Shown here: positions 8,406 to 27,705 of the stretch, one piece after another | Position numbering within the stretch: the stretch's first letter is position 1 | Layout of the letters: every line of letters starts with the position of its first letter | From: a virus | Reading direction: 5' to 3' (one strand) | IMG/VR virus record: IMGVR_UViG_3300020185_000090 | Location: 1-44,388 of that record | Length of the DNA stretch: 44,388 nt | Notes under the pieces: generated by a model | Database searches by the model: none | What the model saw: the letters and a program-made list of their open reading frames with translations, nothing else | What the model was told of the DNA's origin: nothing | Made by a program: the position numbers and the translations under genes

Positions 8406-8413
8406 TATAAATA
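8406..8413 (+). promoter_or_regulatory. late promoter (perfect TATAAATA) of the neck-terminase block
   Basis: A perfect TATAAATA would start RNA near 8419, giving a leader of about 26 bases before gp13. GTAGT and ACTAC in this leader can form a small stem. It probably drives gp13 to gp17. Confidence 0.75.
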
Positions 8414-24018: not shown

Positions 24019-25438
24019 TATAGTAAAAGTTTCTAAGATAGACGAGGTTTTTATGAAGGTTCATTGTGATGATGGCCTTGCAAGAGACTTGTTTGAGTTC
24101 TTTTCATTTACAGTTCCTAATGCAAAGTTTATGCCTTCATACAAAAATCGTATGTGGGACGGTAAGGTTCGTCTATTCTCAATTAAAACTCATAAGATTT
24201 ATATCGGACTACTTCCATATGTAGATGAATTTTGTAGGGAAAGGGGTTATGGATTTGAAGGGGTTTCTGAAGTTCTTGGAAACAAACAAAGAGAAAAAGT
24301 TAGTCAATCATGGTTGACAGATTTAAAACTTCCTTTTGAACCTAGAGATTATCAGATAGAAGCATTCAATACTGCAATTCAATATGGAAGACAACTATTA
24401 CTTTCACCAACTGCAAGTGGTAAGTCATTAATCATATACTTACTCGCAAGACATTATGATAGTAAAACAGTAGTCATAGTTCCTACAACATCACTGGTAG
24501 AACAAATGACAAAAGATTTTATTGATTATGGTTATAAAGAACCCGTCTGTAAGATATACCATGGTCAAGAAGTATTTGATGCACCGATTACAGTCACAAC
24601 ATGGCAAAGTTTTGCAAAAGCACCTAAAGAAGTTCTACAGTCTTTTGATGTTGTAATAGGAGACGAAGCACATTTATTTAAAGCACAAACTTTAAAAACT
24701 ATTTTAGAAAAAATGAAAACTACTGCAATTCGTATTGGAACTACTGGAACATTAGACGGTTCAGAAGTTCATAGATTGCAACTGGAAGGTTTATTCGGGC
24801 CTGTCAAAAAAGTTATATCTTCAAAACAACTTATGGAAGACGGAACAATTGCAAATTTATCAATAGATTGTATCATACTTCGTCATACTAAACAGAAAAA
24901 AATGTCTTATCAAGACGAAATGGACTACCTAGTATCAAATGAACAAAGAAACCTTTTTATAACGAATCTAGTGGGGTCTCTTAGAGGAAATACATTAGTA
25001 CTATTTCAATACATAGAAAAACATGGTCAACCACTATGGGAGTTATTCAATCCTATGGTTAGTAGAATGAATGGGACTTTACATTATGTGCATGGTGCAA
25101 CTGATACTGAAGACAGAGAATCAGTCAGAGAGATTGTTGAGAACTCTAAAAAGAAAAACAATGTTATACTTGCATCATATGGAACATTTTCAACTGGAGT
25201 GAACATTAAGAAAATAGATAATGTGGTTTTTGCAAGTCCATCTAAATCACGAATCAGAAACCTACAGTCTATTGGTAGGGGTTTAAGAAAAACTGAAGGC
25301 AAAACTTCTATGAAGTTGTTTGACATATCAGATGACTTACAATGTAATAATCATACATTGAATCACCTTAAAGAACGTATAAATATCTATAACGAAGAAG
25401 GTTTTTCTTATAACATAAAACAATTTGATTTAAAGTAA
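24011..25438 (+). CDS. uvsW: DNA/RNA helicase UvsW
   Basis: The 475-residue superfamily 2 helicase has an N-terminal domain followed by the Q-like FEPRDYQIEA, Walker A SPTASGKS (132-139), DEAH box at 218-221, motif III GTTGTLDG, and motifs V and VI in the second RecA lobe (STGVNIKKIDNVVFA, QSIGRGLRKTEGK). UvsW unwinds branched DNA and R-loops and helps switch from origin- to recombination-dependent replication. The order of motifs is intact. Confidence 0.95.
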   Translation: MSDIVKVSKIDEVFMKVHCDDGLARDLFEFFSFTVPNAKFMPSYKNRMWDGKVRLFSIKTHKIYIGLLPYVDEFCRERGYGFEGVSEVLGNKQREKVSQSWLTDLKLPFEPRDYQIEAFNTAIQYGRQLLLSPTASGKSLIIYLLARHYDSKTVVIVPTTSLVEQMTKDFIDYGYKEPVCKIYHGQEVFDAPITVTTWQSFAKAPKEVLQSFDVVIGDEAHLFKAQTLKTILEKMKTTAIRIGTTGTLDGSEVHRLQLEGLFGPVKKVISSKQLMEDGTIANLSIDCIILRHTKQKKMSYQDEMDYLVSNEQRNLFITNLVGSLRGNTLVLFQYIEKHGQPLWELFNPMVSRMNGTLHYVHGATDTEDRESVREIVENSKKKNNVILASYGTFSTGVNIKKIDNVVFASPSKSRIRNLQSIGRGLRKTEGKTSMKLFDISDDLQCNNHTLNHLKERINIYNEEGFSYNIKQFDLK

Positions 25439-25899
25439 TGACATCACCAAAAGACTTATGTCCCCAAAAATACGAAGTTCTCAAGTTAAAGACTGGAACT
25501 GAAATATGTGGGATGACAAGAAATACTAATAAAGGTATTGAAGTAATTCTACCTATGGTATGTCAGTTAAACTTAATAGCAAAAAATAATACTCTTGCAA
25601 CCTTCTACCCATATGCACCTTTATCTAAAGACCCTTCGATAACAATCGAAAATGAACAGATACTTCATCGTTCCAATATGAACTCCCAGTTCATTCCATT
25701 TTATGATGAGGCTTCTTCTCAATGGCAAACAATGGTGGAGAACGGAAAAATACCCTTAACTAATAAATCTAATATAAGAGGATTAGTTGAACAGACCCTT
25801 GAAGACATGTTGTTAAATTCTGAAGAAGAATATTCAGATGTGTCTCAAGAGGATATTGACCTTTACGATATTGCTAAAGGTAAGAAAGTAATCCATTAG
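25438..25899 (+). CDS. phage protein with a possible Sm-like N-terminal fold
   Basis: The 153-residue product starts on the A of the uvsW stop codon. The first 90 residues (YEVLKLKTGTEICGMTRN, then GIEVILPMVCQLN and similar strands) resemble the small Sm-like proteins found downstream of uvsW in marine T4-like phages. The C-terminal part is an acidic helical tail (QTLEDMLLNSEEEYSDV). No function is assigned. Coupling to uvsW suggests a DNA or RNA metabolism role. Confidence 0.55.
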   Translation: MTSPKDLCPQKYEVLKLKTGTEICGMTRNTNKGIEVILPMVCQLNLIAKNNTLATFYPYAPLSKDPSITIENEQILHRSNMNSQFIPFYDEASSQWQTMVENGKIPLTNKSNIRGLVEQTLEDMLLNSEEEYSDVSQEDIDLYDIAKGKKVIH

Positions 25900-25983: not shown

Positions 25984-26121
25984 ATGACCACAATGGTTAA
26001 AAAAACTCGAACCAATTTTCATAGAGCAAAGGATATATTAGAATTTTCAATTTTAATGACCTTTCCGTTCTTACTACCATTCATTACGATGTATTTTGCA
26101 TCATCTATGAGACTATTTTAA
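25984..26121 (+). CDS. 45-residue single-pass membrane protein
   Basis: The product begins with a basic stretch (MTTMVKKTRTNFHRAKD) and then one hydrophobic helix (FSILMTFPFLLPFITMYFA) before a short end. The positive residues before the helix predict a cytoplasmic N-terminus. The stop codon overlaps the next ATG (TAATG), so this gene, the 30-residue gene and the cytochrome gene are chained. Family unknown; the size and style recall small accessory subunits of respiratory complexes, which is inference from context. Confidence 0.6.
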   Translation: MTTMVKKTRTNFHRAKDILEFSILMTFPFLLPFITMYFASSMRLF

Positions 26122-26213
26122 TGAATAGAAAACTAATAGAAACAATCGAAATAAGTTCACTTGCATTTATTTTTTGTATATCAATATTTTCACTTACAGG
26201 AATTTCACTATGA
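26121..26213 (+). CDS. 30-residue single-pass membrane peptide
   Basis: The frame encodes MNRKLIETIEISSLAFIFCI... with one hydrophobic helix from residue about 12 to the end. It starts within the previous stop codon and ends by overlapping the cytochrome ATG by four bases (ATGA), which is strong evidence that it is translated as part of the chain. No family is recognised. It could be a structural partner in a small membrane complex, or serve only to couple translation. Confidence 0.5.
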   Translation: MNRKLIETIEISSLAFIFCISIFSLTGISL

Positions 26214-26653
26214 AAGAATTGGGAATGTCATTATTAGGGTGTTTAGCAATCGCAACTTTCTTTGTTGCAAAGGTATACCCTAACTTAGAATACAGTGGAT
26301 ACAGTAGTAATACTTCTTGCACTGGTCAATGTTATGTTGACTATGTTGCATTGAATGGAACTGCATCAGAAATAGAACAGAGAAAGAATGAACTTGCAAA
26401 TGCAGATGAGTTCTCTTCTATCAGAGGTCTATGGAGTGGTTGTGCAGCTTGTCACGGTGCAGAAGGTCAAGGTATGGCAGTCTTCCCCAAACTTGCTGGT
26501 CAATCTTCTGATTACATTGTAAGTAAACTCAATGCATATAAAAACAGAGAAACAGTCGGTAATATGTCTTCTACTATGTGGGCTCAAGCAGGAATGTTGA
26601 GTGATGCAGATATCAATATGATTGGTAAGTTTATCGAGGTGGAGTTAAAGTAA
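26210..26653 (+). CDS. membrane-anchored class I cytochrome c
   Basis: The 147-residue product has an N-terminal hydrophobic anchor or signal (about 5-22), a spacer with a C37-x3-C41 pair that could form a disulphide, and a monohaem cytochrome c domain. The haem site is C78-A-A-C81-H82 in GLWSGCAACHGAEGQG. It is followed by FPKLAGQSSDYIVSKL and by M119 or M123 in GNMSSTMWAQAGMLSD as the sixth ligand, then the conserved DINMIGKFI helix. This resembles c553/c5-type electron carriers of proteobacteria. Domain and ligands are intact, so it should bind haem in the periplasm if the host maturation system handles it. The upstream ATG at 26174 is rejected because it lies in the preceding gene and would spoil the ATGA overlap. 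Confidence 0.85.
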   Translation: MKELGMSLLGCLAIATFFVAKVYPNLEYSGYSSNTSCTGQCYVDYVALNGTASEIEQRKNELANADEFSSIRGLWSGCAACHGAEGQGMAVFPKLAGQSSDYIVSKLNAYKNRETVGNMSSTMWAQAGMLSDADINMIGKFIEVELK

Positions 26654-26859
26654 TGTTCGTCCCTTGGTTCTCAAAACCCGAAACAGAAAAGAAAGTATTG
26701 CAAATTGTAAATCTTTCTCCCGATGTATCCGTTTTAGATAAGATAGAAGAAGTTCACCCAATGAGACAAATTGCAGTAATGTCAGTTGTGCAAGTCCTCG
26801 TTTTCGGTTTTATGTTGTTATCCTTTTGGTTAATCAACCTATATTTGAGTCAAATATGA
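26653..26859 (+). CDS. 68-residue protein with a C-terminal membrane helix
   Basis: Residues 1-40 are charged and soluble (MFVPWFSKPETEKKVLQIVN...), and residues about 43-64 form one hydrophobic helix (VMSVVQVLVFGFMLLSFWLI). This is a tail-anchored layout with the N-terminus probably in the cytoplasm. Start overlaps the cytochrome stop codon (TAATG) and the end overlaps the next gene by four bases. No family is recognised; the context suggests an accessory subunit of the cytochrome. Confidence 0.6.
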   Translation: MFVPWFSKPETEKKVLQIVNLSPDVSVLDKIEEVHPMRQIAVMSVVQVLVFGFMLLSFWLINLYLSQI

Positions 26860-26993
26860 AACACTATATAGTATATACAGTATTATCCCTAACAATGTTT
26901 TATCTTGCAATTGGGGATTTAGATAGAATGAGTCGTACTCTTCCTACCAAAAGTCGAGTCATTCCGTTGGATGCATATATCCCTAAGTTCTAA
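26856..26993 (+). CDS. 45-residue protein with an N-terminal membrane segment
   Basis: The product starts MKHYIVYTVLSLTMFYLAIG, a short hydrophobic helix, and continues with a basic, proline-containing tail (SRTLPTKSRVIPLDAYIPKF). It overlaps the previous gene by ATGA and is the last gene before a terminator. It could be a small secreted or membrane-bound peptide with the tail in the periplasm. Family unknown. Confidence 0.6.
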   Translation: MKHYIVYTVLSLTMFYLAIGDLDRMSRTLPTKSRVIPLDAYIPKF

Positions 26994-27047
26994 TTGCTTG
27001 CTAATAGCTTCCCCGTGGGGACATAGTAATAATATCATAAGATTCTG

Positions 27048-27067
27048 AATCCCACAAGGGGTTTTTT
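27048..27067 (+). terminator. Rho-independent terminator after the cytochrome cassette
   Basis: AATCCC (27048-27053) pairs with GGGGTT (27058-27063), including one G-T pair, and is followed by four more T. A separate CCCCGTGGGG palindrome lies at 27011-27020. The 154 bases between 26994 and 27147 hold no gene. Confidence 0.7.
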
Positions 27068-27113
27068 GAAATAATTGCTAAAAACTTCAATTAAATAAAT
27101 ACTAAAAAACCCC

Positions 27114-27141
27114 TTACAATATGGGGATTATTGTGTATAAT
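27114..27141 (+). promoter_or_regulatory. sigma70-type promoter of the late sigma gene, leaderless geometry
   Basis: TTACAA (27114-27119) and a perfect TATAAT (27136-27141) are 16 bases apart. The A of the gp55 ATG at 27148 is seven bases after the -10 box. Confidence 0.6.
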
Positions 27142-27147
27142 AGGTAC

Positions 27148-27705
27148 ATGACAACGAAAAAAGACCCTAAAACTCAGGCGCATTACGTCAACAATAAGGA
27201 CTTTACTGCCGCTGTTGCTGAATATGTTGAACAAATAAAAACAGCAAAAGAAAAGGAAGGAACTCCACCACAAATGTCAGAGTACATAGGAGAGTGTATC
27301 TATAAGATTGCAACTCGATTATCTACAAGACCCAATTTCATTAACTACACTTATAGAGACGAAATGATTTGTGATGCAATTGAAAACTGCATTCAATACA
27401 TAGGAAACTTTAATGTAGAAAAATCAAATAATGCATTCGCATATATTACTCAAATATGTTATTATGCTTTTCTTCGAAGAATACAAAAAGAAAAGAAACA
27501 AGTCTACATCAAACAACAGGCCATAGATGCAACCAATGTCACTATGGATGCATTTGATACTATTGACGGTCAACATGACCCAAGTCTAATCAATACTAAT
27601 GTTGAATGGATGCAAGAAAACATGACTAGAGTTGAATACCAACCTAGAAAATCAAAGAAAAAAGTAAAAGAAGCAACAAATTTAGAAAAATTCTCGGAGG
27701 AGTAG
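27148..27705 (+). CDS. 55: late-transcription sigma factor gp55
   Basis: The 185-residue product matches gp55, the small sigma that directs host RNA polymerase to TATAAATA late promoters with help of the sliding clamp. The conserved core is DEMICDAIENCIQYIGNFNVEKSNNAFAYITQICYYAFLRRIQKEKKQ, cited here by its start and end, at about residues 75-122, which corresponds to sigma region 2. A longer start at 27121 would place the N-terminus across the promoter, so the ATG at 27148 is chosen. It fits the late octamers found across the window. Confidence 0.9.
   Translation: MTTKKDPKTQAHYVNNKDFTAAVAEYVEQIKTAKEKEGTPPQMSEYIGECIYKIATRLSTRPNFINYTYRDEMICDAIENCIQYIGNFNVEKSNNAFAYITQICYYAFLRRIQKEKKQVYIKQQAIDATNVTMDAFDTIDGQHDPSLINTNVEWMQENMTRVEYQPRKSKKKVKEATNLEKFSEE

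Follow-up and report, generated by a model that had tools for sequence, protein, structure and literature searches.

Whether a c-type cytochrome encoded by a marine phage acts as one subunit of a small membrane complex or as an electron carrier in its own right is the question raised by five overlapping reading frames at positions 25984–26993 of the window. The window is the whole stretch of DNA analysed, an IMG/VR viral record of 44,388 bases. The original prediction held that the central gene encodes a cytochrome and that the four tiny membrane proteins chained to it form with it a single electron-transfer complex.

Genomic setting of the cluster

The gene order of the window is that of a T4-like marine myovirus and includes genes for the tail sheath, major head protein, UvsY, a 2OG-Fe(II) oxygenase, UvsW, gp55, a CobS-like ATPase, the clamp and the clamp loader. 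Among named phages, Pelagibacter phage HTVC008M and Methylophilales phage Melnitz are closest at the nucleotide level, with similarity confined to conserved genes, and no tRNA genes were found in the window. The five frames lie between a gene that follows uvsW and the gp55 gene in the order A, B, cytochrome, C and D, and all were recovered at the predicted positions and lengths, neighbouring frames overlapping by 1–4 bases. The features of the locus are as follows.

25438–25899, + strand: upstream boundary gene, after uvsW; weak match to PHROG 471 'methylamine utilization' (E = 0.0019)
25984–26121, + strand: small membrane protein A, 45 aa; conserved in relatives, pN/pS approximately 0.50
26121–26213, + strand: small membrane protein B, 30 aa; 1-base overlap with A; conserved, pN/pS approximately 0.50
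26210–26653, + strand: c-type cytochrome, 147 aa; ATGA overlap with B; Pfam PF00034, E = 1.7e-8
26219–26275, + strand: predicted membrane anchor or uncleaved signal, cytochrome residues 4–22, from hydropathy; helix 2–26 in the model
26318–26332, + strand: Cys37-x3-Cys41 pair of the N-terminal extension; invariant in 88/88 distinct relatives
26441–26455, + strand: CxxCH haem attachment site (CAACH); invariant in 88/88 distinct relatives
26576–26578, + strand: Met123, probable distal axial haem ligand; invariant in 88/88
26653–26859, + strand: small membrane protein C, 68 aa; 1-base overlap with the cytochrome; pN/pS approximately 0.28
26856–26993, + strand: small membrane protein D, 45 aa; ATGA overlap with C; pN/pS approximately 0.48
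27121–27705, + strand: downstream boundary gene, gp55-like late sigma factor; PHROG 234, E = 5e-57

The upstream boundary gene also neighbours the cluster in approximately 30 relatives. Thirteen copies of the T4-type late promoter motif TATAAATA are present in the window versus 5.85 expected, mostly 5' of structural genes and enriched between positions 8406 and 22869. None was found immediately 5' of the cytochrome cluster, which weakly suggests that the cluster may be expressed ahead of the late phase. Short GC-rich inverted repeats such as CCCCGTGGGG were noted in the gap between D and gp55 (27000–27130), where no terminator was called. No IscA gene lies between D and gp55 in the window; the IscA found at that place belongs to a relative, L002.

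A cytochrome with one haem domain and an N-terminal extension

The third gene is assigned as a genuine class I c-type cytochrome (PF00034) on the basis of its CxxCH site, distal methionine and modelled fold. The Pfam Cytochrom_C profile scored 36.1 bits against a cut-off of 21.3 and the sequence contains one haem domain at about residues 66–147. The intact haem site and candidate methionine ligand originally proposed were borne out, as Cys78, Cys81, His82 and Met123 are unchanged in every one of 88 distinct cytochromes. Met123 is the likely distal ligand because it is invariant while Met119 and Met129 vary, and it aligns with the corresponding methionine of cytochromes c4 and c554, which in c4 precedes the LSD/LSN segment.

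An AlphaFold2 model built from 63 diverse aligned phage sequences had a pLDDT of 87.8, against 62 with 26 close relatives as input. Foldseek searches with this model (probability 1.00; target-normalised TM 0.83–0.85 to 8yts and 2zzs) ranked cytochromes c546/556, c554, c552 and c553 (0.73–0.85) ahead of cytochrome c4, including a chain of the bc1-cbb3 supercomplex (8smr), and profile comparison likewise matched c4, c552 and c554. The two haem-c domains that define cytochrome c4 are not present, the 147-residue protein having a single CxxCH. A search of a viral structure library with the model gave no match and PHROGs contains no family for the phage cytochrome.

The N-terminal 65 residues comprise a hydrophobic helix and the Cys37-x3-Cys41 segment, whose invariant cysteine pair may form a disulfide, and no PDB sequence match extends into this region. 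The membrane anchor that had been predicted is supported in the window by the hydrophobic N-terminal segment. However, in some relatives, for example L058, this stretch resembles a cleavable signal peptide, and membrane anchoring may therefore vary and not be universal.

Distribution and selection

Three pattern scans of IMG/VR confirmed the cytochrome in 260, 492 and 498 viral contigs, about 500 in all. A tblastn search of the INPHARED isolate-phage collection (50,697 phage records) returned no match. Among 84,980 species genomes only four matches were obtained, each with phage-type nrdB and glutaredoxin neighbours, and these look like phage contigs binned into metagenome-assembled genomes; at the sensitivity used, no cellular orthologue or donor was found in this collection. 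The contigs designated L146, L147, L148 and L149 belong to species-representative assemblies (Synechococcus CPC35, Sphingobacteriales bacterium and Planctomycetaceae TMED10) and are apparently phage sequence. The cytochrome gene is a probable phage auxiliary metabolic gene (AMG), being flanked by core phage genes (uvsY, uvsW, gp55, major head, tail sheath and clamp genes) and maintained by selection with a median pN/pS of 0.37.

Four small conserved membrane proteins

Hydropathy analysis agreed with the predicted single hydrophobic stretch in each of A, B, C and D, and placed one near the cytochrome N-terminus. It had been stated beforehand that failure of the small frames to be conserved in relatives would count against the proposal; median pN/pS values of 0.50, 0.50, 0.28 and 0.48 for A, B, C and D indicate instead that all four are real conserved genes under purifying selection. 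Protein A has 45 residues in the window versus 54–60 in most relatives. The five-gene set recurs in other phages: A, B, C and D flank the cytochrome in the same order in approximately 24 distinct loci, and some of its members do so in approximately 31. This recurrence, together with the pN/pS values, indicates that the arrangement exceeds chance.

Protein C is the most strongly conserved of the four and consists of a polar N-terminal part with an HPM(K/R)Q motif followed by a C-terminal transmembrane segment. It has 535 relatives, which occur at both genomic sites described below, with and without the cytochrome. Searches of Pfam, PHROG and NCBIfam with A, B, C and D gave no convincing relative, a C profile had no match in the PDB, and tblastn searches of INPHARED with A and C found none. 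In L033, L363, L387, L405 and L448 the C slot is occupied by other small proteins having a soluble N-terminal part and a C-like C-terminal transmembrane pattern (Q...F..ML..F), and these are possibly remote relatives of C. A further family of tiny membrane proteins, marked by the motif GTKGI-x-K-x-x-YYGRKTGK-x-YTA, was seen near the cytochrome in L062, L148, L363 and L367.

Electron-transport and iron genes beside the cytochrome in relatives

In relatives L326, L331 and L334–L336 the cytochrome gene is followed, with a 4-base overlap, by a gene assigned from its sequence as a true alternative oxidase (AOX). Matches to Pfam were at E = 1e-65 or better and those to PDB entries at E = 2e-38 to 3.5e-38 (3vv9, E = 3.5e-38), and the diiron ligands are retained, with E33, E73, H76, E124/E126, E175 and H178 invariant in five phage copies. 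With phage AOX as the seed, a scan recovered 508 relatives in marine T4-like phage contigs. The cytochrome lies within 6 kb in 28 of the 66 distinct AOX loci examined, a fraction biased upward by the use of a cytochrome-adjacent seed, and 21 of the 66 have nrdB. At the uvsW–gp55 site used by the window itself, AOX alone is present in L433, L448 and L450. In one isolate record, that of Phage C48C1, the 'hypothetical protein' WJE87901.1 (OQ984149.1 26279–26830; L376) is an AOX, with 62% identity.

A pseudoazurin gene adjoins the cytochrome in L074, L359, L362 and L363, in several cases overlapping or directly adjacent to it, and its cupredoxin domain was recognised by Pfam Copper-bind (4e-14 to 4e-18) and by similarity to PDB 3tu6 (E = 8e-25). 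In L363 pseudoazurin is next to the cytochrome and is followed by ferredoxin and AOX. Phage pseudoazurin without an adjacent cytochrome was observed in L360, L361, L364 and L365. No AOX or pseudoazurin was found in the window or on the sequenced part of many other cytochrome carriers, and a 153 kb relative (G001) likewise yielded no AOX.

The cytochrome of L030 precedes genes for a ferritin-like protein and a class V aminotransferase of cysteine-desulfurase type. The run cytidylyltransferase/cupin, cytochrome, ferritin-like protein is shared by L030, L043 and L044, the cysteine-desulfurase-type gene coming next in L030. IscA-like and IscU-like Fe-S assembly genes were noted near cytochrome or AOX loci in L150, L002, L058, L336, L408, L422 and L426.

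Exchange of the cytochrome between genomic sites

In 113 distinct loci the cytochrome occupies either the A-B-cytochrome-C-D locus or, more often, a position between nrdB and glutaredoxin, and 52 of the 88 distinct cytochromes adjoin nrdB. At the nrdB–glutaredoxin site the cytochrome is present without A, B and D, whilst C may flank it on one side or the other or be missing. Loci with C alone are frequent, as are loci with A-B-C-D and no cytochrome. L150 matches L002 at 99.8% over 4.36 kb upstream but lacks the cytochrome, and L154, which also lacks it, agrees with L052 to 99.4% across 4.86 kb on the upstream side and to 99.0% across 3.8 kb on the downstream side. On a tree of the 88 cytochromes, genomic context requires 13 changes versus a mean of 32 for shuffled labels, and the well-supported branches by themselves require no fewer than 4 changes of the nrd label and 3 of the gp55 label, so that the gene must move from one site to the other. 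These comparisons indicate that the cytochrome is exchangeable cargo and not a fixed subunit of a five-protein complex.

A fixed five-subunit membrane electron-transfer complex, in which the four small proteins bind the cytochrome into a single assembly, would account for the tight overlaps between frames, the single hydrophobic segment per protein and the ordered recurrence of all five genes. However, its components are found apart: near-identical phages carry the small genes without the cytochrome, the cytochrome is present elsewhere without A, B and D, and contigs of 96–124 kb, which may be incomplete, carry C but neither cytochrome nor AOX. None of the small proteins was seen beside a bacterial oxidase. 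An obligate assembly is thus largely refuted, and a fixed complex of this kind is now very improbable. Among the small proteins only C, or one resembling it, is plausible as a partner of the cytochrome, and it is not obligatory.

With the complex set aside on the L150/L002 and L154/L052 pairs and the small genes lacking a cytochrome, three other explanations are to be weighed. Phage takeover regions often contain groups of tiny single-span proteins, and the independence of C and A-B-D from the cytochrome would suit anti-host or exclusion factors that disturb the host membrane or block superinfection; invariant haem and methionine ligands and the linkage to AOX and pseudoazurin indicate a redox function instead, leaving this role with little probability. 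That the cytochrome is a passenger host gene with no role in infection, or host sequence mis-binned as viral, might be read from its presence or absence in close relatives, but is barely credible given the flanking T4-like core genes, the contigs numbering in the hundreds, the purifying selection seen among highly divergent copies and a genome collection whose only four matches have phage-type neighbours. Alternatively, cytochrome and AOX could serve mainly as electron sinks or oxygen scavengers, shielding nearby oxygen-sensitive or diiron enzymes (class I ribonucleotide reductase, Fe-S and 2OG-Fe(II) enzymes) or balancing redox for dNTP synthesis and not raising ATP yield. The commonest cytochrome site, between nrdB and glutaredoxin, is consistent with this, as are the absence of proton pumping by AOX and the IscU/IscA, ferritin and cysteine desulfurase genes near several loci. 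Assembly of the class Ia ribonucleotide reductase cofactor, however, needs oxygen, so that scavenging is of no obvious help; a cytochrome loaded with haem in the periplasm cannot reduce the enzyme directly; and the site in the window is not an nrd site. A primary sink or scavenger function is accordingly judged unlikely.

Proposed role in host respiration

The cytochrome, the product of a movable AMG, is probably an auxiliary electron carrier of respiration that links quinol oxidation in the host with a terminal oxidase, and not a complex subunit. The product would be a membrane-tethered single-haem cytochrome of c554/c552/c553/c4-domain type, exported by the host and supplied with haem by the host maturation system. 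Tethered to the inner membrane, it would take up electrons from host bc1, or from a different donor, during infection and pass them to a terminal oxidase. AOX does not pump protons and, where present, would provide a second quinol outlet. The two together could hold the quinone pool in an oxidised state and maintain NADH turnover while dNTP synthesis surges, a role that fits the frequent nrd location of the cytochrome, and could sustain respiration and the ATP supply for dNTP synthesis and genome replication as host components decay. As AOX bypasses cytochrome c, its pairing with the cytochrome does not by itself identify the bc1-to-oxidase route. T4-like phages have two sites for such genes, one after uvsW and before gp55 and one between nrdB and glutaredoxin, into which the cytochrome, AOX or both have been swapped repeatedly. 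As a guess, C may assist or modulate host respiratory complexes.

The frequent position of the cytochrome beside AOX or a blue-copper electron carrier suggests, by analogy, that uncultured marine T4-like phages may tune host respiration as cyanophages tune photosynthesis. A broader reading, held only tentatively and given somewhat less than an even chance, is that marine T4-like phages of non-photosynthetic bacteria bear an exchangeable kit that would re-plumb host respiration during infection, made up of a tethered cytochrome c, AOX, pseudoazurin, ferredoxin, Fe-S and haem helpers, and small single-span proteins that bind to or modulate host respiratory complexes. If true, this would be the respiratory counterpart of the cyanophage photosynthesis kit. 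Should hundreds of uncultured marine phages indeed supply a respiratory carrier and a quinol oxidase of their own, control of host respiration becomes directly testable, and through it control of oxygen use in the sea and of the ATP yield of infected heterotrophs. Near-identical phage pairs with and without the cytochrome are natural experiments.

Comparison with known systems

The haem fold, CxxCH and methionine ligand of the phage protein are shared with Vibrio parahaemolyticus c554 (2zzs), Pseudomonas nautica c552 (1cno) and Thioalkalivibrio paradoxus c546/556 (8yts), and identity to single-domain c554, c552 and c553 cytochromes is 36–42% over 68–80 aligned columns. Unlike these, the phage cytochrome has an extra N-terminal hydrophobic segment and a 40-residue extension with the invariant CxxxC pair. 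Its profile is similar to both haem domains of cytochrome c4, the electron donor type present in the bc1-cbb3 supercomplex (8smr), although c4 has two haem domains in approximately 190 residues versus one in the phage protein.

Pelagibacter phages HTVC008M and Mosig (Kyanoviridae) share the genome plan, capsid genes, uvsY, uvsW, the methylamine-type gene and gp55, but have no cytochrome, no C family and no A–D cassette at the locus. A literature search whose scope took in few subscription journals found no phage c-type cytochrome of this kind, no phage pseudoazurin and no AOX in phages that infect heterotrophs. Reads for cbb3 oxidase subunit I were reported in a 2012 virome study (PMC3474794), and a 2013 study listed respiratory genes with a warning of cellular contamination in such data (PMC3877843).

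Cyanophages carry photosynthetic electron-transport genes, and in one model infected cells pass electrons to oxygen via plastoquinol terminal oxidase (PTOX) or cytochrome c oxidase (PMC5082946). The parallel drawn in the original prediction is strengthened by the relatives that link the cytochrome to alternative oxidase, pseudoazurin and ferredoxin. Cyanophages encoding plastocyanin (petE), PTOX and ferredoxin are likewise T4-like marine phages with small electron carriers and a quinol oxidase, and phage pseudoazurin and AOX are distant relatives of the PetE and PTOX families. Unlike cyanophages, the cytochrome phages carry the pseudoazurin, AOX and c-type cytochrome of bacterial respiration. 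Phage handling of electron flow is well documented for cyanophage photosynthesis.
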